DNA from: Bacteroidales bacterium WCE2004
GTDB lineage: Bacteria > Bacteroidota > Bacteroidia > Bacteroidales > UBA932
Assembly: GCA_900167895.1 (NCBI GenBank)
Contig: FUZR01000002.1
Location: 186,001 to 250,000, forward strand
Direction: 5' to 3'
DNA length: 64,000 bases
In this document: piece by piece, positions 11,571 to 26,833 of the stretch
Numbering within the stretch: position 1 is the stretch's first letter
Layout: the number at the start of each line of letters is the position of its first letter
The notes under the pieces: model-generated
Database searches by the model: none
The model's input: only the letters and a program-made list of their open reading frames with translations
What the model was told of the DNA's origin: nothing
Program-made: the position numbers and the translations under genes

Positions 11571-12557
11571 ATGAAACTTCATGTGCCTGTTCTTTTCGTA
11601 TTCATCAGCATCATTTGTTCATCTTGTGGTGTAAAAGCCAAGCCGACAGAAAATGAACAAGCATTGATTGAATCCATCCAGGAGATTCTCTCAGTCAAGA
11701 AACAGCTCGCTGACACGTATTGGGCGGAGTTTGACCAAGATGAACACTCCGCACCTGTCATCTTCTATGCAGATTCAGCCTGTTATGTCCTCAACCCGAA
11801 AAGAAAGTTCCTCAACGAATTCGAGTGCACCAAACTGGACGTCAAGGACTTCGACTTATACCGGACAAAACCGTTGGATTCGCTTCAATTCCACATGGAG
11901 ACACACGTGGAGCTGGACAACGACACCACATTCTATGGACGTACGCCTTATGTAAGATGCAGCACGCTTGAAATAGTACGAGAGACCAATGAGATGTATT
12001 CCGACAACACCTGGTGGATCCCCATGGTCATGCACGAGATGGTCCACGGTTGCCAGGACTCGCACAGGGAGTACTATATCGCCCGAGGCAAAGTCAATTA
12101 CTGCGTATTCGAGTTTGAATTATCCCAATATCCGATAAGGTATCCGTGGCTGTTGGACGCTCTTATTCAGGAGAATGATATGATTCTGTCCGCCCTCAAT
12201 GCGTCCTCCGACGAAGAACGCCATGATTGTATCCATCAATTCCTGTCGATCAGAAAAGCCCGGAAGGCGGAAATGACCGAAAAACTGGGCGTCGAATATG
12301 TTCAGCTGGAAGAAGAATTTGAGACAGCAGAATCGCTTGCTAGATTCTTCGAGGTACAGTCGGCCATCATGCTGGGCAACAAGCACAAGAACTTCAAGGA
12401 GGACTCCTGGTTCTTTGCAGATGCCGTAGAGACGTCCTATTTCTTCGTGACAGGATATAATCTCGTAAGATTGTTCGTCAAACTTGGCATTGACCTGGAT
12501 CTGCCCTATCAGAACAAAGAGCATAGTGCATTGGAGGACTATCTTGTGCTTTACTGA
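11571..12557 (+). CDS. Secreted lipoprotein zinc metallopeptidase (HExxH)
   Basis: Predicted lipoprotein of 328 residues, taking the ATG at 11571: MKLHVPVLFVFISIICSSC gives a good signal with lipid-anchor Cys19. The frame is open upstream to 11505, but that part is the relic of another gene. The zinc-binding motif HEMVH occurs in VMHEMVHGCQDSH (about residue 160), preceded by NTWWIPMV. A third ligand is not obvious; the Glu in ARFFEVQSAIML further on is a candidate. No match to a named peptidase family is certain. Base composition is lower in GC than the core genome. Probably acts in the periplasm or on the surface; substrate unknown. Confidence 0.6.
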   Translation: MKLHVPVLFVFISIICSSCGVKAKPTENEQALIESIQEILSVKKQLADTYWAEFDQDEHSAPVIFYADSACYVLNPKRKFLNEFECTKLDVKDFDLYRTKPLDSLQFHMETHVELDNDTTFYGRTPYVRCSTLEIVRETNEMYSDNTWWIPMVMHEMVHGCQDSHREYYIARGKVNYCVFEFELSQYPIRYPWLLDALIQENDMILSALNASSDEERHDCIHQFLSIRKARKAEMTEKLGVEYVQLEEEFETAESLARFFEVQSAIMLGNKHKNFKEDSWFFADAVETSYFFVTGYNLVRLFVKLGIDLDLPYQNKEHSALEDYLVLY

Positions 12558-12596
12558 AAAACCTCAAGCACCTCCACTCAAAGAAAACGAAACGAC

Positions 12597-12764
12597 ATGC
12601 AGACAGAACTGATAGAATTGATGCAGGAACAGCTCCGCGTCGCACTGCCCTTTGAGAGCCAGGACGACTACGCCGGCCTGGAAGGCGAAGTGACCGAAGG
12701 CCGGGACCTGGCCTCCCAGGCAGAATCGCTGCTGACCGCCGCCCGGAAGAAATATTCCCTCTAA
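12597..12764 (+). CDS. Hypothetical small protein (55 residues)
   Basis: An ATG-to-TAA ORF 39 nt after the metallopeptidase gene, same strand. It encodes an acidic, probably helical peptide (starts MQTELIELMQEQLRVALPFE, ends LLTAARKKYSL). GC-rich codon use at third positions resembles core genes and differs from the AT-richer metallopeptidase gene before it. No family is recognised. Right after the stop lies the first copy of a 27-bp direct repeat that recurs inside the small ORF at 13668, so the gene may have been cut or shuffled in the same rearrangement. Confidence 0.4.
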   Translation: MQTELIELMQEQLRVALPFESQDDYAGLEGEVTEGRDLASQAESLLTAARKKYSL

Positions 12765-12769
12765 CCTCC

Positions 12770-12796
12770 GGCGGCATCACCCTCCCCTCCGGCAAA
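12770..12796 (+). repeat. 27-bp direct repeat, copy 1
   Basis: A 27-bp stretch starting GGCGGCATCACCC is repeated identically at 13752-13778. This copy is non-coding and follows the stop of the 55-codon ORF by 5 nt. Confidence 0.8.
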
Positions 12797-12804
12797 TGCA
12801 CTAA

Positions 12805-13575
12805 TCAAAGATCCTCGCCATGGGCCATGTTATGTAGGTTATCATAATAAAGGCCAATATGATACTCTGCTCCGTTTTCGATAATCATAAACCAAACATC
12901 ACCGTCAGCCGCGGACTTCATCCCATCGAGAAAGGCCATTATAATCTCGTAAGCCTTCATTTCGTCTTGACCATATATGCGCTGTAACTCTGCAGCGACT
13001 TGCAAAGAAAGAGTGCTTTGCTCTTCATCAGACCGGTCCACGCCTCCAATTATCAAATCATTCAGCTTGACCAGAATATCATCCGGAACCAATCCCGCAA
13101 GGCGGGCAACCGCCTTCTCCGTTATTTCCTCATATCCCCTATTCGAGTCATAATACTGAAAAACAGCTTGATAGCGTTTGTCATGTACCGTTATCTCATA
13201 TGAAACATCCTCGGCATCTGGAATCGGTTCATTAAAAGAGAAATCAACATATTTATCGGATTTTTTGAACTGCGCGAGCAAACGGTTGAATTCTATTTTT
13301 ATGTTCCCCTCCGACTTATCCGGGAACGCCACATATATACGATCCACCAGATCGTGGTTCGTATGGACATATACATCCACAATATTTCCATTAAACTGCC
13401 CCTTGTATCCTTCAGAGACAGAGCTGTAATAAAATCCCTTAGCCTTCAGCGCCGCAACAAATTGAGCTTTAGAGCCATCAATGGGAATCCCAAGAAACTT
13501 CAGCGCGCCGGAATTCTGCCCATACGCCGAAATAACGAGGAGGAACAATACGATAATGTTGAATAACTTTCTCAT
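12805..13575 (-). CDS. Secreted hypothetical protein
   Basis: Exported protein of 256 residues with a clear signal peptide (MRKLFNIIVLFLLVISAYGQ, cleavage near residue 20). The mature part begins ALKFLGIPIDGSKAQFVAAL, a pattern I recall from short secreted proteins of Bacteroides and relatives that have no assigned function. The sequence has no metal-binding or catalytic motif. Two similar halves (beta-rich N-terminal, helical middle DDILVKLNDLIIGG, C-terminal beta) suggest a compact periplasmic domain. AT-richer than the core genome. It lies between the two copies of the 27-bp direct repeat and on the opposite strand from the neighbouring small ORFs, which suggests insertion into an older locus. 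Confidence 0.65.
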   Translation of the reverse strand: MRKLFNIIVLFLLVISAYGQNSGALKFLGIPIDGSKAQFVAALKAKGFYYSSVSEGYKGQFNGNIVDVYVHTNHDLVDRIYVAFPDKSEGNIKIEFNRLLAQFKKSDKYVDFSFNEPIPDAEDVSYEITVHDKRYQAVFQYYDSNRGYEEITEKAVARLAGLVPDDILVKLNDLIIGGVDRSDEEQSTLSLQVAAELQRIYGQDEMKAYEIIMAFLDGMKSAADGDVWFMIIENGAEYHIGLYYDNLHNMAHGEDL

Positions 13576-13667
13576 AATGGTTAATAGTTAGTGTCTGGCG
13601 TAATATAGGCAAACGGCTCGGAAATTCAGTTACAAAATCGAATAACTCAACACGTCACTTAGTTGCA

Positions 13668-13847
13668 ATGCTTGTCACCTACTACTTCAACGCCCCGGAA
13701 GTAGACCTTCGCCGAGCAAAAGCCACCGGCAAACGCCCCGGCCGCTACTTTGGCGGCATCACCCTCCCCTCCGGCAAACGCGCCTTCGCCATCTACGAGG
13801 GCGGAAAAGTCGTGGAGCGCTATGCAATTAATATCAATAACACATAG
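13668..13847 (+). CDS. Hypothetical small protein (59 residues)
   Basis: ATG-to-TAG ORF encoding a basic peptide (MLVTYYFNAPEVDLRRAKAT at the start, then RYFGGITLPSGKRAFAIYEG and an AT-rich tail). GC-rich core-like codons up to the last ten codons, which turn AT-rich exactly where the defence island begins; the 3-prime end may therefore be a junction. Contains the second copy of the 27-bp direct repeat. No family is recognised; it could be the remnant of a longer gene. Confidence 0.4.
   Translation: MLVTYYFNAPEVDLRRAKATGKRPGRYFGGITLPSGKRAFAIYEGGKVVERYAININNT
13752..13778 (+). repeat. 27-bp direct repeat, copy 2
   Basis: Identical to 12770-12796, 982 bp away. In this copy it is coding, within the 59-codon ORF (GGITLPSGK), so it is probably the original and copy 1 the duplicate. 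Confidence 0.8.
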
Positions 13848-13911
13848 AAAATAAAGAGGCCAAAATCAAGTCTGACTTTGGCCCCTTTCTCAAAACTCAA
13901 AATAGAGAGGT

Positions 13912-14340
13912 TTATTCCGTCTTTGACATTTGCTTAGCGATTTCCGCTGCATCTACGACTGGAGCCGGATAATACTCCAATCCAGTCCCCGCGGTTCGAA
14001 TAGCAATCATTCCTCGCGTACTACTATAAGAGATTCCTAGCAGAGTCGGAATGATATTAACATGATCGACTATTCCTTTAGGCAGGAATTCTATTGCTTG
14101 TTCGATGGGATCAAGCTCAAAAATCGTTTCCGTTTCTTGTCTAAAGACTTCCTGGTCCTCAACCGTATAGAAAACATTGATAACAAAAGATATTTGTTTC
14201 TGCTCAACGGGCTCTATTCGGCAACTAAACTGAAACGCAACAGACTTCTCCGGATACTTTTTCCCCGAAACAAGTTTCGTTTCAAAAGAGCGCTCTTTGC
14301 ACCTAACTAGGCGAAAGCTAACTTTTTGTTCTGCACCCAT
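13912..14340 (-). CDS. SecB-like chaperone of a toxin-antitoxin-chaperone cassette
   Basis: Cytoplasmic protein of 142 residues. The layout matches SecB-like proteins: an N-terminal antiparallel beta-sheet (VSFRLVRCKERSFE, VAFQFSCRIEP, ISFVINVFYTVED), an acidic FELDP turn, then the hallmark helix-strand (IIPTLLGISYSSTRGMIAI) and the xxAGTxL...P loop (RTAGTGLEYYPAPVV). It is the last gene of a three-gene minus-strand unit and overlaps the HTH antitoxin gene by 34 bp. Gene order toxin-antitoxin-SecB is that of TAC systems, in which a solo SecB-like chaperone keeps the antitoxin folded. The role is inferred from order plus fold-level resemblance; a general export SecB is less likely, given the operon. 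Confidence 0.65.
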   Translation of the reverse strand: MGAEQKVSFRLVRCKERSFETKLVSGKKYPEKSVAFQFSCRIEPVEQKQISFVINVFYTVEDQEVFRQETETIFELDPIEQAIEFLPKGIVDHVNIIPTLLGISYSSTRGMIAIRTAGTGLEYYPAPVVDAAEIAKQMSKTE

Positions 14341-14765
14341 GAGTGACGTTTTTTTGATTTAACATTCTTTATCTCCCCAACAAACACAACGTTCGAGGCC
14401 ATCGTAGGAGATACCCGGGGGAAAAGCGGCCTTTTTGAAAATGACACTTCGTTGTAAGAAGGTTCTATTGAGGGAATCTCTATCAAGGATATCCCCAACT
14501 TTTTCCCATATTCGATAGCCGTCTCCACCCTAAAGGAAGATTCTTGCCCATGAAGCAATTTATGAATATACTGAGGTGTAACATTCAGCTTCTTAGCAAG
14601 CTCGGTTTGAGACAATCGATTACGCTCCATATAATCAATTAAATGGAGGATAATCTGGGTTGTAGCACGAATTTCGTCTTGGCGCATCATGTCTCTGGAA
14701 TCTTCTTCCATCCAAGACATAGAGCCAGTTTTTGTGCTCACTGCGTGTGCGTGCAGTCCTTTCAT
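14307..14765 (-). CDS. XRE-family HTH antitoxin with C-terminal extension
   Basis: DNA-binding protein of 152 residues. The helix-turn-helix is at about residues 51-74 (LSQTELAKKLNVTPQYIHKL), preceded by an amphipathic helix and followed by a roughly 55-residue hydrophobic/basic tail (VVFVGEIKNVKSKKRH region). In known TAC systems such a C-terminal tail is the chaperone-addiction segment. The ATG at 14765 overlaps the stop of the preceding gene by 4 nt, so translation is coupled; internal Met codons near residues 26-27 are alternative starts. Two dyads around the operon promoter (15427-15438, 15475-15486) are plausible autoregulatory sites for this protein. Confidence 0.75.
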   Translation of the reverse strand: MKGLHAHAVSTKTGSMSWMEEDSRDMMRQDEIRATTQIILHLIDYMERNRLSQTELAKKLNVTPQYIHKLLHGQESSFRVETAIEYGKKLGISLIEIPSIEPSYNEVSFSKRPLFPRVSPTMASNVVFVGEIKNVKSKKRHSWVQNKKLAFA

Positions 14766-15421
14766 AATACTATTTCGAACAGGTCTTTTTTTGTTGTAAC
14801 TCCTTTGTCCTTTAACAAATTATACAAATACAATATTTTACGCAATTCAAGAGTTGTATTAGGCGCCTGTTCCATTTCCTCGACAAGCTTGATTGCGCCA
14901 CCAGTTATAATAAAGCAATTGAAGTCTACCTCAATAGCATATATACGAAATGCGATATTATTAATAATATAACCATATTTGGATTTCAGTTTTACCAACT
15001 GATGCTTTCGCTTATTAATTTCATTCTTTAATCGAATTTTCTCATCCTTCTTACTTAACGGCTCAAAATGACCATAAACTTCTTCATTAAGACAGCTATT
15101 CTTAAAATCCTGAAAAATAATCGGTCTTGAGGTTGTAACATCCGAGACAAATCTATCTTTCCCGATTTTCTTCCAATAAGGTGTTTGGAAGTACTCTATA
15201 TTCTCATCAAAAAAAGATCTCAAATATATCGGATCCCTCCACTTAGCTCGAAGATTTTTAAACTCGTTTTCCCCCAAATACAATGAATCATACTCCAACG
15301 CATCTCGCGGTAATGAAAGCTCTTCCCAATCCTCCTCTTCAAAAACCGCAGCAAAAACAATTAACTCCGACTCTTGGGGCTCAACACCAGGAGGGGAGGT
15401 ATATATTGAATCAAATCTCAT
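14762..15421 (-). CDS. Candidate toxin of the SecB-linked cassette (unknown family)
   Basis: First gene of the three-gene minus-strand unit; 219 residues. The central part resembles RelE-like or uncharacterised Bacteroidota proteins only loosely: FFDENIEYFQTPYWKKIGK, then a charged linker (EPLSKKDEKIRLKNEINKRK). The C-terminal half has the conserved-looking block YAIEVDFNCFIITGGAIKLV followed by a helical EELRKI-like tail. I recall similar proteins (CFxITGGAIKL) beside XRE regulators in other Bacteroidales, without assigned function. It is twice the size of HigB and has no recognisable HigB, HicA or MqsR motif. Toxin status is inferred from position only. Confidence 0.5.
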   Translation of the reverse strand: MRFDSIYTSPPGVEPQESELIVFAAVFEEEDWEELSLPRDALEYDSLYLGENEFKNLRAKWRDPIYLRSFFDENIEYFQTPYWKKIGKDRFVSDVTTSRPIIFQDFKNSCLNEEVYGHFEPLSKKDEKIRLKNEINKRKHQLVKLKSKYGYIINNIAFRIYAIEVDFNCFIITGGAIKLVEEMEQAPNTTLELRKILYLYNLLKDKGVTTKKDLFEIVL

Positions 15422-15426
15422 TATTC

Positions 15427-15486
15427 AACCACTTAGTTTATTTTTGCAAAGGTAGAAAATTAAATGGACAAATCAACCACCTGGTT
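15427..15486 (-). promoter_or_regulatory. Promoter of the toxin cassette with two operator-like dyads
   Basis: Minus-strand promoter: TTG (15476-15474), 19-bp spacer, TACCTTTG (15454-15447), about 26 nt before the ATG at 15421. Two related dyads lie around it: AACCACCTGGTT (15475-15486, touching the -33 box) and AACCACTTAGTT (15427-15438, downstream of the start site), 48 bp apart. Their placement fits repression by the operon's own HTH protein. Confidence 0.65.
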
Positions 15487-15882
15487 TAATTTTTCATCAG
15501 AAAGCCACACACAAATACCATGTCGCTATTTGAGCATATCCCTTCGTCACCAACGACGGCGATTAAATCGTTGGGCAGATACCCATTCGACCAATGTCCA
15601 ACATTAAATGCGCTTCAAAAGCAAAGGCAAGACATTACATGCCCGCGTTATGAATTAGCTAGGCTTCACACATCCGCAACTATTTACTATATCTAGCAAG
15701 AGCGTCGATGTCACCATATAATAATCTTTCGAGTCAAGACTACTCATTAAATAGTTATATTCCCCATTCGATCTCTCATCTTCGAAGTATCACCACTTTA
15801 AATATCTAATGAAAGGTACGGAATATATGCAAATTCCTTGTTCGGTTCTTGGCTCACGGATATCCCTTCGCCACCGCCACAC
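15487..15882 (+). other. AT-rich intergenic region between the two divergent defence operons
   Basis: About 400 bp with no convincing gene. One 58-codon ORF (15520-15696) has no promoter, atypical composition and no recognisable features. The sequence contains two stretches of similar wording around ATATCCCTTCGTCACC (near 15537) and ATATCCCTTCGCCACC (near 15860), a short imperfect direct repeat. Confidence 0.4.
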
Positions 15883-15955
15883 GCACAATTGTTCAGGAAA
15901 TTATAACAATATGCACTATTGTTCCTTGCAAGGAAAAATAATATCCATACCTTTG
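15883..15955 (+). promoter_or_regulatory. Promoter and controller-type operator of the restriction operon
   Basis: TTG (15926-15928), 19-bp spacer and TACCTTTG (15948-15955) form a good promoter 23 nt before the HTH gene. Upstream, GCACAATTGTTC (15883-15894) and GCACTATTGTTC (15913-15924) form direct repeats exactly 30 bp apart. The second is also one arm of a dyad AACAAT-N7-ATTGTT (15905-15923) that ends next to the -33 box. This resembles control by a C-type regulator encoded first in the operon. Confidence 0.55.
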
Positions 15956-15978
15956 CAAAAGACAATTAGGAATTAGCG

Positions 15979-16218
15979 ATGGAAAAACGATTTAATAAAG
16001 CACTTGCGAAAAACATAGGAGAATCCCTTCGAAAAATAAGGCTCTCCCAGGAAACAAACCTGACACAAGCCGATGTCGCAGATGGCGCGGGCATCTCAAC
16101 CAGGTATTATGTTTATCTTGAGCTTGGCCAAAGAATCCCAACCATCGAAGTTATCATGAGAATAGCACGAGCATACGGCATGAAACTCAGCGATTTTGTA
16201 AAATACTTTGAAAATTAG
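15979..16218 (+). CDS. XRE-family HTH regulator (controller-like protein)
   Basis: Single-domain DNA-binding protein of 79 residues, the size of restriction-modification controller (C) proteins. Helix-turn-helix at about residues 28-55 (LTQADVADGAGISTRYYVYL), with the typical PTIEVIMRIARAYG helix after it. It is the first gene of the eight-gene operon, 21 nt ahead of the AIPR gene. Direct repeats and a dyad just upstream of its promoter are likely binding sites. In classical systems a C protein delays restriction until methylation is complete; that role fits here but is inferred. Confidence 0.8.
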   Translation: MEKRFNKALAKNIGESLRKIRLSQETNLTQADVADGAGISTRYYVYLELGQRIPTIEVIMRIARAYGMKLSDFVKYFEN

Positions 16219-16239
16219 AATACTAACAAACATCCCATT

Positions 16240-18288
16240 ATGGAAGATATTAATAAATTCTATCAGGACTTCATGGCCCAGGCACAAGAGGATGCCGAGC
16301 TCAACGAAACAACGCTAGAGGATGCTCTCACTGAGAATATCATTGAGTATATCAAGGAGAGCAACGAAACAAATAGCCCTGAAATCCTTTGTATTCATCC
16401 CCTTGACGAAACCGTCAAGAAACGGGATAATTTCCGTATCAACGCCTTCGATTATTCTGATATGTCCGGCGAGCTGGATATTTTTGTCTCTCTATTCAAG
16501 AATTCCGAAAAGCCAGATACCATCCCCCACAATGAAATTGACGCCGCGATTAATCAGGGTGTCCGTTTCTTCAACCTAACAATTGCCGGTATCTTGTCGA
16601 AGATGCTTAGAGAGGCACGACCGGATTTCGCTGAGGTGACCGACATGATCTTGGAAGAGTATAAGGCAAAGAATATACGCCTTATCCGATTCTTCGTCAT
16701 AACCAATGGCAAACTTAAAGTTGAGTATACACTTGACGACAACAAATTAACCGACCAGCAAATAGATTGCGAGTACCATGTTTGGGATATCGAGAATGTC
16801 CAACGTGCAGACCTCGCAGGCCGCCAGATGTCCGAGATCGACATCACGCTCGACAACCCTATCGAGTGCATCCGCCTCAATGACCCCAACGACAAAGTCA
16901 ACACATATCTGGGGATTATATCCGCATATGAGCTTGGAACCATTTATAGCAAGCATAAGGATAAGCTATTGGACCAAAATGTCCGCAACTATCTCGGCGG
17001 AAAAATCAAAGTAAATGCGAGGATCGCCAAGACCCTCCGAGAGGCACCCGAAATGTTCTTCTCTTACAATAACGGTATTTCCAGTACCGCATCAGAAGTT
17101 GTCATAAAGAAGAGCGATTTCGTCGACAATCCAGATGCAGCTAAAATGTACATTACAGGCCTCCGAAATTGGCATATTGTCAATGGTGGACAAACAACCT
17201 GCACCATTTATAATGCATTCAAAAAAGGCGTGGATATTAAGCCTGCATATCTTACTGTGAAGGTTTCCGAAATCCGCGACAAAGATCGTAATGCGACTAT
17301 TGTTCAGAATATTGCCGAGTCTGCAAATTCTCAAACGCAGATTAAGGATTCTGATCTCAGCGCCAACCACAAGTACCTCTCAAGTATCGACTTCATCTCG
17401 AAGAAAGAATGGACTCCCTCCGGCTCCGTTCGTCCGAACACGCTATGGTATTTCGAGCGCCTCCGCGGGCAGCTTCTTTCAGACAAACTTAATGAAGGAG
17501 ATGCTCGTTCCGTCAAGGTCGCTAAGTTTATGCAGGCGCGGCCGAAAGAACAGATTCTTACCAAGACAGACATCGCCAAAGTTCTGATGGCATGGGATGG
17601 TTTCCCGAATGAGGCAAGCAAGGGAAACGAGGTGTGTTTTAACAATTTCTGGAAGAAAGACTACAAAGATACTGAGGTAACAAAAGAATACTTCCAAGAG
17701 ATAGTAGCCAAACGCATCATTTATCTTACAATTCATAGGCTATTCAAGGAAGCCGGACATAGCGGCTATGCAAATATAGTTGACAACTATGTCCTTGCCA
17801 CCGTCGCACAGAAAACTCAGCAGAACCTTGACCTGGAATACATCTGGGCTAATCAGAAGGTTCAGCCAGAGCTTGTTGATCCTATCAAGGAATGCATCGA
17901 GGTCATGGTTGCATACATAACCAAGATTGCCCAGGAAGGCATCAATCCCACCGTGGTCGCAAAACGTGCCGATTTCTGCAGCACTATCAAAATTCAGATG
18001 GCAAACGTGAAATTCCCGGCAACCCTTTCGCTCGTAAAGAAAAGCGAAGAGGAACTGACTCCTGATCAGCAAGCCGCAATTGACGCTGTTGTTGCGATCC
18101 CTGTTGAAGTCTGGGCAAAACTATCTTCTTGGGGCAAGGAGACGCACAAGATGTCCATCATGGAAAAGAAACGTATAGACCATATTGTGGTCGCACTTGG
18201 CAAGAATCCGAAATCGATAAGCTATTCATCGGCAGAAGGTTGCCTGAAGATTTTAAGAATGTCGGAAGACGCCGGTTTCACGAGATAA
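16240..18288 (+). CDS. AIPR-family (abortive infection phage resistance) protein
   Basis: Large protein of 682 residues. The AIPR core is recognisable in the middle: NARIAKTLREAPEMFFSYNN at about residues 258-277, followed by WHIVNGGQTTCTIYNAF. This combination of a disordered-looking P..FF.YNNG segment and VNGGQTT is the family signature. The first 130 residues contain ELDIFVSLF and DTIPHNEI, in the style of an N-terminal nuclease-like fold, but I cannot assign catalytic residues with confidence. AIPR proteins are linked to phage resistance and are often encoded beside restriction-modification genes. The stop is 6 nt ahead of the first methyltransferase. Biochemical role unknown; a phage-triggered effector or restriction accessory is possible. 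Confidence 0.8.
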   Translation: MEDINKFYQDFMAQAQEDAELNETTLEDALTENIIEYIKESNETNSPEILCIHPLDETVKKRDNFRINAFDYSDMSGELDIFVSLFKNSEKPDTIPHNEIDAAINQGVRFFNLTIAGILSKMLREARPDFAEVTDMILEEYKAKNIRLIRFFVITNGKLKVEYTLDDNKLTDQQIDCEYHVWDIENVQRADLAGRQMSEIDITLDNPIECIRLNDPNDKVNTYLGIISAYELGTIYSKHKDKLLDQNVRNYLGGKIKVNARIAKTLREAPEMFFSYNNGISSTASEVVIKKSDFVDNPDAAKMYITGLRNWHIVNGGQTTCTIYNAFKKGVDIKPAYLTVKVSEIRDKDRNATIVQNIAESANSQTQIKDSDLSANHKYLSSIDFISKKEWTPSGSVRPNTLWYFERLRGQLLSDKLNEGDARSVKVAKFMQARPKEQILTKTDIAKVLMAWDGFPNEASKGNEVCFNNFWKKDYKDTEVTKEYFQEIVAKRIIYLTIHRLFKEAGHSGYANIVDNYVLATVAQKTQQNLDLEYIWANQKVQPELVDPIKECIEVMVAYITKIAQEGINPTVVAKRADFCSTIKIQMANVKFPATLSLVKKSEEELTPDQQAAIDAVVAIPVEVWAKLSSWGKETHKMSIMEKKRIDHIVVALGKNPKSISYSSAEGCLKILRMSEDAGFTR

Positions 18289-18294
18289 TACACC

Positions 18295-19374
18295 ATGAAG
18301 AATCAGTCTTATAGACTATTAGATCTATTTTGTGGATGCGGAGGCATCAGTGAAGGCTATGCGCTCGCCGGTTATCAAATAGCCGGCGGCATAGACTTTA
18401 ACGAAGATGCCACAAAAACCTTCCAGCATAATTTCAGGGATGCGACTGTGTTCTGCACTGACATTTCACAGTTTGACGATAACCGCGTTAAAGAAGTGTA
18501 TCATGATATAGATGTTATCGTTGGTGGTCCTCCCTGCCAAGGATTCTCTTCCGCTAATAGATGGCAGAAAGAGACAGATGACCCGAGAAATAAGCTATTC
18601 TTTCAGTTCCTTCGATTTGTCGAAGTCCTTAAGCCAAAAGCCGTGATGATTGAAAACGTTCGTGGCCTTCTAACGCGTGACAACGGGTATGCAAAAAAAC
18701 GAATTGAGAGTCTGCTCGATAAAATGGAATACAATGTATCTATGAAGGTGCTTTGCGCATCGGACTATGGTGTCCCGCAGGACAGGCACAGAGCAATCAT
18801 TGTTGGGATCAAGCGCAAGAATCTGAAAGATCAGCGCCGTTTTAACTTTGAGAGAATTCCTCTGGCAGACAAAACGACCGTTTTCGATGCTATTGGAGAG
18901 CTATATGCATTCGAGAATAAACGGCCTGAGACAATGCACCTGAAGAAGGTGCCTGACACTCCCCTACGCGCTTATTATCGTCGCGAAGATGGACTTGTGC
19001 CTGACCACGTTTCTGTATATCCCGCAGAAAAAGTCCAGGAGCGAATCAAACATGTTCCCCAAGGCGGTAATTGGCAGGACGTCCCTGATGAGCTTTGGTC
19101 CAACTTGCGCTCGAATCGTCACTCTTCTGCATACCGTAGATTGAAGGAGGACGAGCCCTCGTGTACAATAGACACGGGGAATGCTCATAGCAATTACTTT
19201 CATCCAATTTTTAACCGAATTCCGTCCATTAGAGAATCTGCCAGGTTGCAATCTTTCCCCGATTCATTCGAGTTTATAGGAGCACGAGGAAGTAAATACA
19301 AACAGGTGGGGAATGCGGTTCCTCCGCTTCTTGCGAAGGCAATCGCTGAACAATTAAAGGAATACATAAAATGA
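18295..19374 (+). CDS. DNA (cytosine-5) methyltransferase, LlaJI.M1/M2-like (first)
   Basis: S-adenosylmethionine-dependent m5C methyltransferase of 359 residues with the full motif series: I LLDLFCGCGGISEG (AdoMet binding), IV GGPPCQGFS with catalytic Cys81, VI ENVRG, VIII QDRHRAIIVG, and C-terminal IX/X ESARLQSFPDSFEF and QVGNAVPPLLA. The variable target-recognition region lies between about residues 200 and 295. It overlaps the second methyltransferase by 4 nt. Two different m5C enzymes in one operon usually mean that the recognition site is asymmetric and each strand has its own methylase. The recognition sequence cannot be read from this protein. Confidence 0.93.
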   Translation: MKNQSYRLLDLFCGCGGISEGYALAGYQIAGGIDFNEDATKTFQHNFRDATVFCTDISQFDDNRVKEVYHDIDVIVGGPPCQGFSSANRWQKETDDPRNKLFFQFLRFVEVLKPKAVMIENVRGLLTRDNGYAKKRIESLLDKMEYNVSMKVLCASDYGVPQDRHRAIIVGIKRKNLKDQRRFNFERIPLADKTTVFDAIGELYAFENKRPETMHLKKVPDTPLRAYYRREDGLVPDHVSVYPAEKVQERIKHVPQGGNWQDVPDELWSNLRSNRHSSAYRRLKEDEPSCTIDTGNAHSNYFHPIFNRIPSIRESARLQSFPDSFEFIGARGSKYKQVGNAVPPLLAKAIAEQLKEYIK

Positions 19375-20399
19375 AAATTATAGACTTGTTTTGTGGCGTT
19401 GGAGGCCTTAGCCTCGGATTTGAAAATGCCGGCTTTGAAGTTGCGGCCGCGATCGATATGTGGGATGATGCCATCAAAACCTTCAACCATAACCGTAAGG
19501 ATAAAGTCGCCCAGACCATCTCCGTTGAAGATTTCAACGTGGACGTCCTACCAGCACTGATAAAGAGAGAAAAGATAACCGGGATTATCGGAGGCCCCCC
19601 TTGTCAGGGATTCAGCACCGTTGGCAAGAGAATTATTGACGACTCACGGAACAAATTGTACCTCGAATTCTACAAAGCTGTTAAGATTGCCAATCCGGAT
19701 TTCTTTGTAATAGAGAATGTAAAAGGTATGCTTACCCTCGGCGAGGGAGCATTTGTTAACGATATAATCGAACGCTTTGGAGAGAATGAGAATGGATTGG
19801 GATACAAGATCAGCAAGCAACTCGTGAACGCTGCCGACTATGGGATACCCCAGAACCGCCTCCGTGTCATCTTTGTTGGCATAAAGGGGAAAGAATTCAG
19901 GTTCCCTGAGCCATTTGGCTACACGTTGTCAGCAAAAGACGGAATTGGTGATTTGGAAGGCTCCAACAATGACCATTACGCAAAGGAGCCCGAGAATGAT
20001 TTTCAGCGTTTAATGCGTGGTAGCCAAACACGGCCGACAAACCAAGATTATACTGCCCATAGTGAGCAGACCGTATCGATTATCAGTAGAATCCCGGACG
20101 GTGGTAATATTCGCTGCCTACCTGCAGAATTCTGGCAAGTTCGGAAATACAACAAGGCATTTGAACGGATGAGTACTACAAGGCCTTCAAATACTATTGA
20201 TACTGGACACAGAAACTATTTTCACTATAGTGAGCCTCGTATCCCCACGGTTAGAGAGTCTGCAAGGATACAGAGTTTTCCTGACTCTTTCGAGTTCATA
20301 GGTACGCGGGGAAGTCAATATAAGCAAGTGGGAAACGCTGTGCCCCCTATGCTTGCTCAGGTTATTGCAGAAGAAATTAAGAAAACATTGAATAAATGA
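19371..20399 (+). CDS. DNA (cytosine-5) methyltransferase (second)
   Basis: Second m5C methyltransferase, 342 residues, complete: motif I DLFCGVGGLSLGF, IV GGPPCQGFSTVG with catalytic Cys78, VI ENVKG, VIII QNRLRVIFVG, IX ESARIQSFPDSFEF and X QVGNAVPPMLA. Its C-terminal 60 residues are strikingly close to those of the first enzyme, while the target-recognition region (about 195-280) differs, consistent with an old duplication followed by diverging strand specificity. ATGA overlaps link it to both neighbours, so the three proteins are translated in a coupled way. Confidence 0.93.
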   Translation: MKIIDLFCGVGGLSLGFENAGFEVAAAIDMWDDAIKTFNHNRKDKVAQTISVEDFNVDVLPALIKREKITGIIGGPPCQGFSTVGKRIIDDSRNKLYLEFYKAVKIANPDFFVIENVKGMLTLGEGAFVNDIIERFGENENGLGYKISKQLVNAADYGIPQNRLRVIFVGIKGKEFRFPEPFGYTLSAKDGIGDLEGSNNDHYAKEPENDFQRLMRGSQTRPTNQDYTAHSEQTVSIISRIPDGGNIRCLPAEFWQVRKYNKAFERMSTTRPSNTIDTGHRNYFHYSEPRIPTVRESARIQSFPDSFEFIGTRGSQYKQVGNAVPPMLAQVIAEEIKKTLNK

Positions 20400-21127
20400 G
20401 AGTTACATTAAACAGAGATTTTTACAAAGGATCGGATGGCAGCAGTTTGTCCGACACCCGTTGTGAACAGATGGTATTGTTGTTTGATATGCTCAACGAC
20501 ATCCCCGACGTCTTCGTCACTTACAAGCAGATTCAAGAATATGCTGTAACGAGGTCCCTCTATGGCAACGCAAAGGCCGACTCTGTTGTTCGGACGTATT
20601 TTCCTCTATTATGTAAACTGGGATTTGCCAAGAATGACGATTACATAAAGACAAGCGATGTCTTCACTGAGAGCGGCAAGCAGATGATTCTCTTGTACCG
20701 CGCTCTTGGGGACGCAAAAAGGGCGAACAATCAGGAGATAGTTGACCGGCTATACGATGTAAAAGCAAACCTGATTCAGCTTGGTATTAAGTTCTGGTTC
20801 AATACCGAGTCTGAAAAAGACAACAACATATGGCTGGCTCTTGATCTATTTTCAAAGATGGAGACCGTCGACTGGGACGAGTTCTTATACGCCATCTATT
20901 TGTGGCATCGGGGTAAAAACACGTCGGACATCGTAAGTACGTTGATAAACAACCGAAACAATGGTGTCGAGTACGAGTTTTTCAAAGAAGACGGGAAGTC
21001 TCTGCCAGACACAACTTATACTTACATCCGCGCACTCCTCATTGAGGCCCATATTATTCGTAATATCAACTCGAGTACCTCCACCATTACACAGGAGGGA
21101 AAGAACTTCATAGAAACAGTGTTTTAG
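20396..21127 (+). CDS. Unknown protein in the LlaJI-type operon
   Basis: Cytoplasmic protein of 243 residues without a recognised domain. It overlaps the second methyltransferase by 4 nt and ends 2 nt before the McrB-like gene, so it is surely part of the system. Predicted mostly helical; the segments FVTYKQIQEYAVTRSLYGNA and YIRALLIEAHIIRNI look like winged-helix or small alpha-helical DNA-binding units, but this is only a reading of the pattern. The next protein lacks the N-terminal DNA-binding domain common in McrB-like subunits, so this gene may encode a separate recognition or adaptor subunit. AT-rich like the rest of the island. Confidence 0.6.
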   Translation: MRVTLNRDFYKGSDGSSLSDTRCEQMVLLFDMLNDIPDVFVTYKQIQEYAVTRSLYGNAKADSVVRTYFPLLCKLGFAKNDDYIKTSDVFTESGKQMILLYRALGDAKRANNQEIVDRLYDVKANLIQLGIKFWFNTESEKDNNIWLALDLFSKMETVDWDEFLYAIYLWHRGKNTSDIVSTLINNRNNGVEYEFFKEDGKSLPDTTYTYIRALLIEAHIIRNINSSTSTITQEGKNFIETVF

Positions 21128-21129
21128 CT

Positions 21130-22374
21130 ATGGCAACAATTGAAGGTAATATTAAAAAGAACCTCCAGGAAATCATCGATATGCTTGGAGACGACAACCT
21201 TATGATTAACCTTACCGGGCCTGGCATCAATAAGATATTCTTTGGCGCCCCCGGAAGCGGGAAGTCCTTCTATGTAAACCGCTTCCTTATGGGACACAAG
21301 GACCATTCTTATAGAACGACCTTTCACCCGGATACAGATTATGCCTCGTTCGTCGGTGCGTACAAGCCGTCCATAAAAAAGGCCCAGAAGCCCATCAGAA
21401 CTGATTATACTCTTGCTGAATTGGCCGCAATGCTGAAAGCAGAGTATAATCAGGCGACGACTAAAGTGGTTGCTCTTCACTCATTTGTTTTGAAGTATGT
21501 GGATTATTTCAACGGCAACATCGCGAAGTATGGCAAGAAGGACTTGGTCAAACAGGCCGGGCTGGACGAAAATTATCATGCCGAAGTAAACAAAATGGTC
21601 AACCTATACGAGTGGATGATTTCATCAGGCTACCTTAACGAAGATAATATGGTCACCTATGAGTTCGTTCCCCAGGTTTTTACTCTCGCATATGTTGATG
21701 CTTGGCAAAATCCCGAAGAACAGGTTTTCCTTGTTATCGAAGAAATCAATCGTGGCAATTGCGCTCAGATATTTGGAGACCTTTTCCAGTTGCTTGACCG
21801 CGACGAACATGGTTATTCTTTATACACCATCAAAGCCGATACAGACCTCAAAAACTATCTCGTAGGCCAGCTGGGTGAAAATAGTCTTGGCATTAGAAAT
21901 GGAGAATTACGTATTCCAAGCAATCTTACTATCCTTGCCACGATGAACACTTCAGATCAGTCCTTGTTCCCTATGGATAGCGCTTTCAAGCGTCGGTGGT
22001 CTTGGGAGTATGTTCCTATCGACTCCGCCAACCCTAAGTCACAGTTCAAGATTACGATTGACGACAAGACCTACAAGTGGTCGAGCTTTTTGGATGAGGC
22101 CAACAAGCGCATTCACAAACTCTCAGATTCGGAGGACAAGCAGATGGGTAACTTCTTCATCAAAGCCGACGTGGATGTCGAAGAGTTCAAGAGTAAAGTA
22201 ATGTTCTATCTCTGGAGCGAAGTGTGCAAGGAGTACGAACACGCTGGTAGTTTCTTTAAGAATAAGCGCGACAATGACGCCGAGTTCACATTCAATAATC
22301 TCTTCCCCACCAATGATGCCACGAATGGCATTTTACAGGGTTTTATGGAGTTCCTGGGGGTTGAAGAAGCATAA
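21130..22374 (+). CDS. McrB-like AAA+ GTPase, restriction subunit (LlaJI.R1-like)
   Basis: Motor subunit of 414 residues. Walker A is GAPGSGKS (residues 39-46), followed by the McrB-type TFHPDTDYASFVGAY, Walker B FLVIEEINRG (about 200-209), and the GTP-specific sensor region TMNTSDQSLFPMDSAFKRRW (about 271-290). McrB-family proteins form hexamers that hydrolyse GTP and power DNA translocation with the partner nuclease. The AAA module starts almost at the N-terminus (about residue 30), so the usual N-terminal DNA-binding domain is missing. It sits 10 nt ahead of the nuclease gene, as in LlaJI systems. Confidence 0.9.
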   Translation: MATIEGNIKKNLQEIIDMLGDDNLMINLTGPGINKIFFGAPGSGKSFYVNRFLMGHKDHSYRTTFHPDTDYASFVGAYKPSIKKAQKPIRTDYTLAELAAMLKAEYNQATTKVVALHSFVLKYVDYFNGNIAKYGKKDLVKQAGLDENYHAEVNKMVNLYEWMISSGYLNEDNMVTYEFVPQVFTLAYVDAWQNPEEQVFLVIEEINRGNCAQIFGDLFQLLDRDEHGYSLYTIKADTDLKNYLVGQLGENSLGIRNGELRIPSNLTILATMNTSDQSLFPMDSAFKRRWSWEYVPIDSANPKSQFKITIDDKTYKWSSFLDEANKRIHKLSDSEDKQMGNFFIKADVDVEEFKSKVMFYLWSEVCKEYEHAGSFFKNKRDNDAEFTFNNLFPTNDATNGILQGFMEFLGVEEA

Positions 22375-22384
22375 TTAAAAGAAG

Positions 22385-24118
22385 ATGAGAATCCTTTTTG
22401 AAGATCAAGTGTATAGTCCCCAGTTGATGGAGGACCTCGGCCTTAGCCCGTTTGTGTATACGAGCAGGGACGGGAATGAGGCCGTGCTCCCTTATGTCGG
22501 CTATGTCTACTCTTCAAAAATCAACGACTCAATTTTCATCCTTCCTAAGGTCTTCTTATTTCAGGGAACAGGGATTATTGACGACAAACAGGCGAAACGC
22601 GAAATTGCTTTTGGCAAATACGACATCTATGCCGTTTCGGAAGTCACAGCAGAGCACAATCCCCTCAAGGAAGACGGACTCGACCGGGTACTTTTTGGCC
22701 TATCCACCTGGATATACCGCGCTATCGACAAATATTCCGCTCGGCACCCGAAGAGCGAAATCATCAAGCGCTCATTTATCCAAAGTGTGAATTCGCATAG
22801 CGGGGTTAATGACCAAACGCTTTTGGACACAGTGCTTTCACTGCTTGCCTTCAATAAGGAACACGCCAACCTATTTACCTACATTACGATTGTCAATTCC
22901 AGCGGGAATAATAAAATTCACTGGGGCAAGACTATCAGCAAGATTCAGCCGATAATACAGAATGGGACGCCTTTCTATGCAGAATTCCGCAACAAGAATA
23001 AGGCTATCAATTACGACGAGGAGCTTATCGTGCTATTCTACTCAGTACTTCATTACCTGAGACAACACTACTTCTTCCCCGTTCGCGCTAATCTCAACTA
23101 CGATCTGATTAAACCAGCAGCCATTGACGCGATGATTGAATCCTGTCGTGGCACCAAACTGCTTCGAGCAATACGTCGTAAATACTTCAAAGACGAATTA
23201 GTGCTATTGTGGAGACTATTGTACGCCTTCTTCGATAAATCCGAATCAATCCGGTCCGGCAAATCCAGAGAAGAGGCTCTTCTCGCCCGCTCTTTCGAAC
23301 GCGTATTTGAAGAGATGGTTGATGGCCTCATTGGCGATGACATTTTCGCCGATATGAAGTCCAACGAGGATGGCAAGGAAATAGACCACATCTATAAGGA
23401 GCGCTCCCTACTGGACGATACTCAAATCTACTACATCGGAGATAGCAAATACTACTTCTACGGGGATAATCTGGATAAGAAATCCCTCTACAAGCAGTTC
23501 ACGTACGCCAAGAACATCATCCAACTTAATATCGACATTTTCAACAAGCCATCTGATGAGCGAGAGGATGATGAGCAGCAAATCATCAGCGGAGTTCGTT
23601 ATCGAGACCCGCTGACGGAGGGTTACAACCTTACTCCGAACTTTTTTGTCCGAGGCTACATCAAAGCTGATGATCTGACTGATGGTCACGCATGTTATAG
23701 CGAGGATCGCTTGAGTCAGAACAATCAGATAATGCCCGACAATGTTCACTTTGAGAATCGTCCATTTGACAGAGACACTCTTGCACTCAAAGCGTACAAC
23801 ATCAACTTCCTATTCGTCCTTGCCTCTTATGTGACCAACGCAGACAATGATAATGTCAAGAAGCGTATTCGTAAGAAGTTCCGCAAGGATATGCTTGATG
23901 TCTTCAACGAGAAATTCGATTTCTTCAGAGTTACTCCAAACTCAGGAAGCATCCACAACTTCGTTGAAAAACACTTCGAAGAATTCATCGGTAAGATGTA
24001 TCATTCAGAAGGCGCAGACTTTATATGGTTTGCATTTAACAAAGGAACTGAATCATTGGAGCAACTACAAAATAAGTTCTCAAGCGAAGCTCAAATAACA
24101 CAATCAAAACTATACTAG
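22385..24118 (+). CDS. LlaJI/McrC-like restriction endonuclease subunit
   Basis: Nuclease partner of the McrB-like GTPase, 577 residues. The N-terminal part (about 1-250) is a McrC/LlaJI-type domain (LPYVGYVYSSKINDSIFILP). A PD-(D/E)xK nuclease core follows: D334 in EIDHIY, then D353-x-K355 in YYIGDSKYYFYG, and a KQFTYAKNIIQLN helix. This matches the LlaJI restriction endonuclease family. In LlaJI of Lactococcus the set is two m5C methyltransferases, an McrB-like R1 and this R2; all four are present here in the same order. It should cut unmethylated DNA at an asymmetric site. The SIR2 gene begins 4 nt after its stop. Confidence 0.85.
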   Translation: MRILFEDQVYSPQLMEDLGLSPFVYTSRDGNEAVLPYVGYVYSSKINDSIFILPKVFLFQGTGIIDDKQAKREIAFGKYDIYAVSEVTAEHNPLKEDGLDRVLFGLSTWIYRAIDKYSARHPKSEIIKRSFIQSVNSHSGVNDQTLLDTVLSLLAFNKEHANLFTYITIVNSSGNNKIHWGKTISKIQPIIQNGTPFYAEFRNKNKAINYDEELIVLFYSVLHYLRQHYFFPVRANLNYDLIKPAAIDAMIESCRGTKLLRAIRRKYFKDELVLLWRLLYAFFDKSESIRSGKSREEALLARSFERVFEEMVDGLIGDDIFADMKSNEDGKEIDHIYKERSLLDDTQIYYIGDSKYYFYGDNLDKKSLYKQFTYAKNIIQLNIDIFNKPSDEREDDEQQIISGVRYRDPLTEGYNLTPNFFVRGYIKADDLTDGHACYSEDRLSQNNQIMPDNVHFENRPFDRDTLALKAYNINFLFVLASYVTNADNDNVKKRIRKKFRKDMLDVFNEKFDFFRVTPNSGSIHNFVEKHFEEFIGKMYHSEGADFIWFAFNKGTESLEQLQNKFSSEAQITQSKLY

Positions 24119-24122
24119 GCTC

Positions 24123-26024
24123 ATGAATAAGTATCGCGAAATCATAGAGCTCGTTCGAAAGGAAGACGTCGCACTATTTGTCGGAGCGGGTTGTTCTATA
24201 AGCTCAGGCGCGCCAACCGGAATTCAACTCGCCCAAATAATATGGGAAAAGTTAGAACCTGATTTCAAAGATGAAAACGCTCATTCCTCCCTGCAGAAAG
24301 TATCTGAAGCCCTTATTTTACAAAACGGTAATAACCGAGATACACTTAATAAAGTAATATTCGATAACCTAGCAGGATTAGAGCCCTCATCGTTTCACAA
24401 ATTACTCCGCAAGATTCCTCACTTCCGGACAATTATAACCACGAATTTCGACTCCTTGATCGAAACTGCTTATTCTTTTTCCTATTTTCAAACTATTGTT
24501 AACGATCAGGAATTAGTTGCACTTAAGGAAAATGATATCCATCTCTTTAAAATTCACGGAGATGTATCACATCTTGATCAAATAATAGTTTCGGAAAGTG
24601 ATTATAGAAAGTTTTTACAATCTCCTCGCAACACATTGCTCTGGAGCAAAGTTATTAGTGAGTTCTCTTCAAAGCATGTTGTATTTGTCGGCTATAGCGC
24701 TGATGATCAAAATATACTTGGACTAATTGATCTTATTCAAAAACAATTGGAGGGAAAGGCCAAAAAGATGTTTCTTATATCTCCTTCTCTATCAAAAACT
24801 CAAGAGGCAAGATTAAAAACTCTGAGAATTAATCACATAAACGGCACTGGGGAAGAATTCCTTTCTTTTACATTTTCCGCGCTAAAAGATTCTTTTGGAG
24901 ATGACAAGTACGAAAACATCTGCTCACAGGATACTTTAACTCGCTTTGCTCTACTCTGCGGAGTTCAATTCTCCTTTGAGAACAATGGTAAACATACGAG
25001 TATTACTCGATGGAGAAGCTCAAATGGCTCGCCTTGCCCCTTGGAGATGAATATTACAACGAAGTCTCTTGATATTATTAAAGGGAAGACGCCAACAACC
25101 GTGACAGAAATTGTAAAAGGGTTCGGCATCCCGATGTATGCCTTATCACAGGACGAGATGGCGTCTTTTAAATTAAGAATCAATGAGTTGCGAATCAATG
25201 GAACAAATGAAATAACAAGAGTTTTGGTAGGGCCAGCCATCAATGACATAAATATTGCTTTTATCTCTAGAGAGCAATGTCTAAATTGTCGTTGTAAAGC
25301 GAAGAAGTATTCTAAAAATGGCGAGTGCCATATCCTTATTCCTACTCCAATATACAATTTAGAGCTAACAATTAGTTTCTCAAATATCACAAACAATGTG
25401 ATCACATGCTCCCTCACGATTAAGCTAAACGAGGGGCAATTTGAAGATTTGGAAGCTGCAATTCGATGGACAAAGCTTTTGGCTTGTATGCAAGACGGTG
25501 TAACTTTTACCCTTCATTTAGGTCCCATCGTTCTTAAAAATACTTCTTTCTCGCCCAATGGCGAAGGAGCCCCTATCTATAAAGAATGGATGGAATACTG
25601 TATGAACCTACACGACATTGAAGAAGCGTCCAATACTCTTCTGCCCTATTATGAAGGATTCACACCTAACAGTTTTCTATTCTCTAAGATTATCCGCTCG
25701 TATTTAAAGCACGAGGCTTTTAGTGACAAACCACGTGAAGCATATCAGACATTTACTGTTGATATTGATAAAGGAAGCTTCCAAGCCGACAGTCATGGTG
25801 ATTATTTAGCAAGAGTGATTACCCAAATAAATGGCCCCTTTTCGCTATGTGGTGTAGAGTATTCAATAGCTGAAGAAAGAGTGCTACTACAACACTGTAA
25901 GATAGAGCTCGTTGAAGCAATTGATAAAAAGAAAGAACGGCTTCATTTTACGAATCAAAATGAAACTGTTCAATACGAATACTGCGATAAAGAAGAACCA
26001 GATAGAATTATTCAGAAGCAGTAG
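24123..26024 (+). CDS. SIR2-domain protein with unknown C-terminal domain
   Basis: Last gene of the operon; 633 residues. Residues 1-about 250 are a SIR2 fold of the SIR2-like defence type: GAGCSISSGAPTG (21-33), TTNFDSLIE (106-114), KIHGD (143-147) and GYSADDQNI (190-198). The presumed catalytic N108, D110 and H145 are present, consistent with NAD hydrolysis on activation. Residues about 260-633 match nothing I know; they are beta-rich and hold a Cys-rich patch (QCLNCRCKAKK at about 386-396). A fusion of an NADase with a sensing domain is common in abortive-infection proteins. The 4-nt gap to the nuclease gene argues for co-expression. Confidence 0.8.
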   Translation: MNKYREIIELVRKEDVALFVGAGCSISSGAPTGIQLAQIIWEKLEPDFKDENAHSSLQKVSEALILQNGNNRDTLNKVIFDNLAGLEPSSFHKLLRKIPHFRTIITTNFDSLIETAYSFSYFQTIVNDQELVALKENDIHLFKIHGDVSHLDQIIVSESDYRKFLQSPRNTLLWSKVISEFSSKHVVFVGYSADDQNILGLIDLIQKQLEGKAKKMFLISPSLSKTQEARLKTLRINHINGTGEEFLSFTFSALKDSFGDDKYENICSQDTLTRFALLCGVQFSFENNGKHTSITRWRSSNGSPCPLEMNITTKSLDIIKGKTPTTVTEIVKGFGIPMYALSQDEMASFKLRINELRINGTNEITRVLVGPAINDINIAFISREQCLNCRCKAKKYSKNGECHILIPTPIYNLELTISFSNITNNVITCSLTIKLNEGQFEDLEAAIRWTKLLACMQDGVTFTLHLGPIVLKNTSFSPNGEGAPIYKEWMEYCMNLHDIEEASNTLLPYYEGFTPNSFLFSKIIRSYLKHEAFSDKPREAYQTFTVDIDKGSFQADSHGDYLARVITQINGPFSLCGVEYSIAEERVLLQHCKIELVEAIDKKKERLHFTNQNETVQYEYCDKEEPDRIIQKQ

Positions 26025-26233
26025 ACAACAGGCTTAGGCACATTCTTTCTTAGGGCACATAAGTTAAAACAAGGAATAGCTCTAAAATTGATGCATTTTT
26101 GGAGAACACTTCTGGAGAATTTATATTTGCCCGGCCTTTTCGTCTATTCCTCACGTTGGACGCGATTGATGAGTGATGCCCGAATAGGTCGCTCTTGATT
26201 GTCCTTGCCGGCGCAGAATGCGGGATTTATTCG

Positions 26234-26241
26234 TAATTTTG
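26234..26241 (+). promoter_or_regulatory. -7 promoter element right before the HD nucleotidase gene
   Basis: TAATTTTG matches TAnnTTTG and ends only 4 nt before the ATG at 26246, so the transcript is probably leaderless or nearly so. The preceding 200 bp (26025-26233) hold no gene and mark the right edge of the AT-rich island. Confidence 0.5.
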
Positions 26242-26245
26242 CCGT

Positions 26246-26833
26246 ATGACACGTCTTGAGCAACAACTGAGCTTCATCCTGGAGATCGACAAGGAGAAGA
26301 ACATCTTCCGGCAGACGCATCTGTCGGGCGGCGGGCGGGCCGAGAACGACGCAGAGCACGCCTGGCACATGGCCACGATGGCGTGGCTGCTGCGCGAATA
26401 CGCCAACGAGCCCGTGGACATCGCGCGGGTGATGATGATGTGCCTGATCCACGACATCGTGGAGATCGACGCGGGCGACACGTATGCTTATGACCCGGCG
26501 GGCCTGCAGACGCAGCAGGCGCGCGAGCAGGCCGCCAAGGAGCGCATCTATGCGCTGCTGCCGGAGGACCAGCGCGCGGAGCTGACGGCGCTCTTCGACG
26601 AGTTCGAGGCGTGGAGCTCGCCGGAAGCCCGCTTCGCGCACGTGATGGACAATCTGCAGCCGCTGCTGCTCAACAACTCCAACGGGGGCGCTGACTGGAA
26701 GGCGCACGGCGTCAAGGCGGCGCAGGTGCGCGGCCGCCAGGGCCGCAACCGCCTCGGCTCCGAGCGCCTCGGCGAGCTCACCGAGAGCATCATCGCCGCC
26801 AACGTCGCCGCCGGCATCCTCCCGGAAGAATAA
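26246..26833 (+). CDS. HD-domain 5-prime-deoxynucleotidase-like hydrolase
   Basis: Protein of 195 residues, a compact HD phosphohydrolase. The metal site is H38 (ENDAEHAWHMA), H69-D70 (CLIHDIVEID) and D135 (HVMDNLQP), the arrangement seen in YfbR/YGK1-like enzymes that remove phosphate from deoxynucleoside monophosphates. Cytoplasmic, no signal peptide. GC-rich core codon use returns here directly after the defence island. Exact substrate unproven. The following esterase gene has its own -7 element, so this is a single-gene unit. Confidence 0.85.
   Translation: MTRLEQQLSFILEIDKEKNIFRQTHLSGGGRAENDAEHAWHMATMAWLLREYANEPVDIARVMMMCLIHDIVEIDAGDTYAYDPAGLQTQQAREQAAKERIYALLPEDQRAELTALFDEFEAWSSPEARFAHVMDNLQPLLLNNSNGGADWKAHGVKAAQVRGRQGRNRLGSERLGELTESIIAANVAAGILPEE

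Follow-up and report, generated by a model that had tools for sequence, protein, structure and literature searches.

LlaJI of Lactococcus (pNP40) comprises two C5-cytosine methyltransferases, an McrB-like subunit R1 and a PD-(D/E)XK nuclease subunit R2, and in BsuM and LlaI a short homologue of this McrB-like R1 is part of a three-gene restriction cassette (PMC1459862). Further defence genes have been placed beside restriction operons before: AIPR genes are described with restriction operons (PMC2292703, PMC3506569), Sir2 with type I and type III systems (PMC3506569), and the joining of suicide genes to restriction systems appears as an established theme (PMC3506569). We describe here an operon of Bacteroidales bacterium WCE2004 (contig FUZR01000002.1, positions 186,001 to 250,000; this whole stretch of 64,000 nucleotides is called the window), in which a core of four such genes and a fifth, ORF5, is preceded by an AIPR gene and followed by a SIR2 gene. 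As predicted from its genes, the core is an McrBC-like restriction-modification system of the BsuM/LlaJI type. We read the whole, with a probability of roughly two in three, as a self-regulated, GTP-dependent type II system of the BsuM/LlaJI kind with two accessory defence genes; its new element is a probable detached reader of the FokI type, the rest of the core being of a known kind.

The co-directional run of eight genes proposed in a sequence-only reading of this DNA is borne out: all eight are open on the + strand between 15979 and 26024, in the order helix-turn-helix (HTH) regulator, AIPR, M1, M2, ORF5, R1, R2 and SIR2, with gaps of 21, 6, -4, -4, 2, 10 and 4 nucleotides. Their Pfam families are, in the same order, HTH_3; AIPR_N with AIPR; DNA_methylase; DNA_methylase; none for ORF5; AAA_5 with HTH_73; RE_LlaJI; and SIR2_2. 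Pfam, PADLOC and NCBIfam combined give names to seven of the eight, ORF5 being the sole exception. The whole operon lies inside a low-GC island of the window (guanine-cytosine (GC) content 0.38-0.49 across 10-26 kb in 2-kb steps, against about 0.60-0.69 in the surroundings).

Both methyltransferases of the core, M1 (18295..19374, 359 residues, PF00145 at 2.4e-71) and M2 (19371..20399, 342 residues, PF00145 at 1.2e-71), carry the C5 motifs PPCQ and ENV; they are 40% identical to each other, and M2 is 75% identical to a methyltransferase adjoining a relative of ORF5 in L027, one of the loci surveyed below. R1 (21130..22374, 414 residues, PF07728 and PF24718) is predicted to be the AAA+ motor: it has the Walker A motif GAPGSGKS and an NTSD motif, the combination of Walker A and NTxD that marks McrB-like GTPases, and a sequence search of the PDB returned five matches at E <=0.01, all of them McrB-type chains (best 1.1e-12). 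R2 (22385..24118, 577 residues) scores 29.3 bits against RE_LlaJI (PF09563, 6.7e-07; cut-off 23.6), a family matched among 14 control genomes in B. subtilis only; its candidate catalytic residues D334, D353 and K355, arranged as D334...D353-S-K355, are invariant in 15 aligned sequences, as expected of a PD-(D/E)XK subunit of the BsuM/LlaJI type. Relatives of R2 are numerous (at least 7946 proteins below 1e-3). The proposal that four of the middle genes match LlaJI stands in that the core is LlaJI-like and McrBC-like; it falls short in that the core has five genes, of which ORF5 is probably a separate recognition part, and R1 has no N-terminal recognition part of its own, as the R1 of the four-gene LlaJI set proper does.

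In R1, which has no N-terminal recognition domain, the Walker A motif lies at residue 39; an N-terminal extension is found in 30 of the 30 R1 relatives measured that have no adjacent ORF5. The AlphaFold model of ORF5 (20396..21127, + strand, 243 residues; predicted local distance difference test score, pLDDT, 89.9) is closest in fold to the domains with which BpuJI, Nt.BspD6I and FokI recognise DNA, the matches covering 186-209 of its 243 residues, and has the FokI/BpuJI-type recognition-domain fold; the Foldseek and VIA match lists, which may miss folds, were used for positive matches only. Because of this fold, and because R1 lacks the extension, ORF5 is probably a detached specificity subunit of the restriction core. 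A regulator or an assembly factor of R1 with a winged-helix fold, in place of a DNA reader, is an unlikely alternative; for the caution that the structure aligner attaches to helical folds, we have slightly lowered our overall confidence and raised that in the winged-helix protein. If ORF5 is a reader, McrBC-type motor nucleases can draw their specificity from a separate subunit of FokI/BpuJI fold, which would be an exchangeable reader open to testing. This would be in line with the many unrelated N-termini found on R1 proteins of this group: those of 30 loci form 19 groups by sequence, suggesting that recognition domains have been exchanged extensively.

By sequence, ORF5 matches neither the N-termini of other R1 proteins nor a PDB chain (best E 0.33), and a plasmid search yielded no relatives of it. 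A Mann-Whitney test of R1 length by the presence of an intervening gene was discarded in favour of the Walker A positions, since in L043 and L095 the gene in between encodes a protein with a methyltransferase-like PPC...EN motif and is not a relative of ORF5; these short proteins lie between a C5 methyltransferase and R1 (L043:6946-7662, L095:1407-2117).

The eight genes form one apparent transcription unit. The Bacteroidetes promoter form TTG-N18-22-TAnnTTTG has a single + strand match within 15900-26024, TTG-19-TACCTTTG at 15926..15955, ending 23 bases before the start of the HTH gene; the next + strand match (26099-26129) precedes the gene after SIR2, and the two together compare with 0.35 expected in 12000-26300 from mononucleotide shuffles. 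A generic scan for sigma-70 promoters and terminators stayed near shuffle level. The -33 TTG of the promoter match is contained in a perfect 14-bp palindrome, TTCCTTGCAAGGAA (15922..15935), whose exact sequence recurs nowhere else in the 2,322,854-base assembly, where two further sites differ from it by one mismatch; the reversed pattern, as a control, has no site. A unique palindrome overlapping the -33 element would fit a control protein that regulates its own operon, and TTCCTTGCAAGGAA is probably the operator of the HTH protein (15979..16218, + strand, 79 residues), itself a probable control protein (PF01381, 4.5e-13; PADLOC Control_protein, 1.5e-08). Beyond the operon, an HD-domain gene at 26246 is matched in 4 of 10 same-genus genomes; around these relatives, no match to the other window genes queried was found.

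Relatives of R2 and their surroundings were surveyed in sets of genomes defined by the database's kinship labels; the sets overlap, and each counts the window's genome. An R2 locus is present in 12 of 393 genomes of the order, 11 of 199 of the family and 9 of 250 of the genus, and further ones came from genome_contigs (six), viral_contigs (six), a plasmid and a phage record. Removal of the window's genome and three duplicates (L041, L054, L093) left 36 other loci, of which the plasmid locus L117 was judged from its annotation only. The conserved synteny that the sequence-only reading would predict for the whole set is not observed: in phmmer searches with the window's AIPR and SIR2, none of 35 other R2 loci had a relative of either, so that, as far as the loci are readable, AIPR and SIR2 stand beside LlaJI-type genes only here, the outcome that the sequence-only reading had itself named as its refutation. 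A profile of AIPR run on 34 of these loci had as its best match a 78-residue reading frame in L022 (E 0.0091), which we take for chance. Several loci, L027, L052, L053, L056, L060, L095 and L096 among them, break off less than 2 kb to one side of the core, and there the absence carries little weight. No other locus read shows the exact eight-gene set.

A hint that AIPR and R2 occur together on two metagenomic contigs comes from contigs of equal size among their matches, at 9497 bases (P0155, P0007) and 11777 bases (P0160, P0089). Among the 120 x 120 matches listed, two such coincidences against 0.77 expected are not significant (P 0.18); for the 24 AIPR matches of at least 70% identity, a subset chosen post hoc, the same two compare with 0.14 expected (P 0.009), and ORF5 has none with these 24 (0.03 expected). 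Against the linkage of AIPR, a contig size of 48979 bases common to R2 (P0008) and ORF5 (P0123) is not among the 120 AIPR matches listed.

Some of the surveyed loci show features of their own. In L027 a 30-residue remnant of M1 (67% identical) stands just before M2 (L027:8891-8980), with other viral-contig sequence to its left, and a prophage may end within the M1 gene of what was a BsuM-like operon; R1 of this locus is in two overlapping frames of 110 and 426 residues (L027:10743-12262) and looks broken. Genes for DUF3987 and PriCT_2 adjoin the LlaJI-type operons of L002, L043 and L047, upstream of the methyltransferase genes, and probably belong to a mobile element.

That an AIPR gene stands in front of the core is confirmed by its family matches (16240..18288, + strand, 682 residues; PF10592, 8.3e-68; PF22879, 4.4e-29). 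Its best profile match in PADLOC and NCBIfam is MzaE (224.3 bits in NCBIfam, far below the cut-off of 1050). Elsewhere AIPR is found with MZA-like, EcoRII, DISARM-like and other systems; a C5 methyltransferase is present in 17 of 23 other AIPR loci, 10 of these 17 being MZA-like. AIPR thus recurs beside systems based on C5 methylation and is a plausible functional partner here; that the systems it accompanies have nucleases as unrelated as those of MZA-like, EcoRII and BsuM-like ones points to a shared need, and its dependence on 5-methylcytosine is directly testable. HEPN RNases carry the motif R-x4-6-H. For the present subfamily this activity, proposed for AIPR in PMC3506569, is rejected: in an alignment of 29 AIPR sequences, all of them 42% or more identical to that of the window, no column that is invariant or nearly so holds a histidine. 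A scan of viral_contigs with an AIPR alignment found none, and a search of the same set with the single protein found four loci. After AIPR, two EcoRII-associated loci have a gene of 222-226 residues with no Pfam or PADLOC match (L075:4476-5153, L076:10297-10962).

The SIR2 protein behind the core (24123..26024, + strand, 633 residues; PF13289, 1.6e-27), which the sequence-only reading called NADase-like, is likewise supported by family and motifs. A conserved asparagine and histidine are catalytic in SIR2 domains. Both are present, in TTNFD at residue 106 and HGD at residue 145, and in the PDB the domain matches ThsA (9.3e-17) and KomC (5.8e-16) with TTN.D and HGD aligned; the protein is probably an NADase effector, with a predicted NADase domain at about residues 1-240. 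After about residue 240, Pfam, PADLOC and NCBIfam give no family, and the score against the Dsr2 profile stays far below the cut-off (53.5 bits against 1400). Its gene has a GC content of 0.381 and 0.350 at third codon positions (GC3), compared with 0.439-0.456 and 0.447-0.561 for the genes from AIPR to R2; the HTH gene is intermediate (0.412, GC3 0.400), and one upstream island gene is lower still (0.350). This unlike composition suggests a later arrival, and SIR2 probably joined the operon last, as a recent cargo. SIR2 matches at E <=1e-10 occur in 3 of 198 other family genomes, at 24-30% identity and in the N-terminal domain only; the matches in 217 plasmid and 6 phage records all cover less than 80% of the protein, and a scan of viral_contigs found none. 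On a Hymenobacter plasmid, a SIR2 protein comparable in length and 22.6% identical over 483 columns is encoded after an HTH and a short hypothetical gene; the 13 kb read there contain no restriction genes. The slot directly behind R2 holds other genes elsewhere: prokaryotic Argonaute (Piwi) and Vsr endonuclease genes in L002 (L002:11752-14607) and L006 (L006:11746-14625), whose R2 proteins are 65% and 51% identical to the window's, and, close behind R2, a GmrSD-family gene in L045 (L045:8239-10443). It thus appears to be a position for added defence cargo, of which SIR2 is one example. No paper combining three of prokaryotic Argonaute, Vsr, cytosine methyltransferase and McrB turned up in a literature search.

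The operon would then work as follows, the fold of ORF5 and the architecture around it resting on computation. The HTH protein would bind the palindrome and limit transcription from the single promoter; M1 and M2, to judge from their family and motifs, would methylate cytosines in the host's own sites; ORF5, as a free-standing domain of FokI/BpuJI type, would find unmethylated sites on incoming DNA and load the R1 motor; and R1 would translocate with GTP while R2 cuts, by analogy with LlaJI and McrBC. AIPR would probably act on or sense the same unmethylated or damaged DNA. SIR2 is probably an NADase whose action kills infected cells or halts their growth; it would most likely have been acquired later as cargo behind R2 and be triggered by its own C-terminal part, not by the restriction enzyme.

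The accessory genes may be tied to the core more loosely or more closely than this. That AIPR, restriction core and SIR2 are three neighbouring units of a defence island, which merely share a promoter and do not cooperate, is a tentative alternative with a real claim: the low-GC island, the varied company of AIPR elsewhere and the Hymenobacter SIR2 free of nearby restriction genes all favour it. The sequence-only reading had raised instead a possible integrated two-layer defence, in which restriction acts first and NAD depletion and cell death follow if phage DNA survives; in a fuller form, phage DNA that persists, uncut or cleaved, would be detected by way of AIPR or the R1/R2 complex and switch on the SIR2 NADase. 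Such a system is possible but improbable. The single promoter match and tight junctions across eight genes, the separate promoter match of the gene after SIR2, the intact SIR2 motifs and the precedent of suicide genes joined to restriction systems (PMC3506569) speak for it; the 0 of 35 other R2 loci with AIPR or SIR2, the few and distant SIR2 matches in the family, the deviating composition and the changing occupants of the slot, which suit interchangeable cargo, speak against it. The coupling of SIR2 to restriction failure, based on a 4-nucleotide gap and the absence of a promoter match between the genes, is not supported as proposed. Less probable still is a single machine of all eight, in which ORF5, as a plug-in reader, would point the motor to unmethylated DNA, AIPR would monitor this signal too, and SIR2 would be triggered once restriction fails; if true, one methylation code would govern DNA cutting and cell suicide alike.

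As a composite, then, the exact set is seen only here, in keeping with the view that no described system has it; the idea itself is not new in kind, since AIPR and Sir2 have been described with restriction systems in the papers cited at the outset. Among the papers listed by a literature search that covered few subscription papers, none joins AIPR with LlaJI or BsuM. The operon shares an AIPR protein and a C5 methyltransferase with MZA, and a SIR2 domain with TTN.D and HGD with Thoeris ThsA, KomC and other SIR2 NADases, although none of its eight genes was recognised as a ThsB or Kom partner. Its core has the same two C5 methyltransferases, McrB-like R1 and PD-(D/E)XK R2 as LlaJI; however, LlaJI has four genes and its R1 reads the DNA, whereas here R1 is without a reader and ORF5 is separate. 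BsuM also has two C5 methyltransferases, and to our knowledge neither BsuM nor LlaI includes AIPR or SIR2. The short R1 (414 residues, Walker A at 39) and the presence of a third restriction gene bring the core close to these two systems, ORF5 being set beside their third protein by description only. BpuJI, Nt.BspD6I and FokI, which match the fold of most of ORF5, carry the reader and a nuclease domain in one fused protein; in the window it would be a 243-residue protein of its own, beside a motor-nuclease pair.
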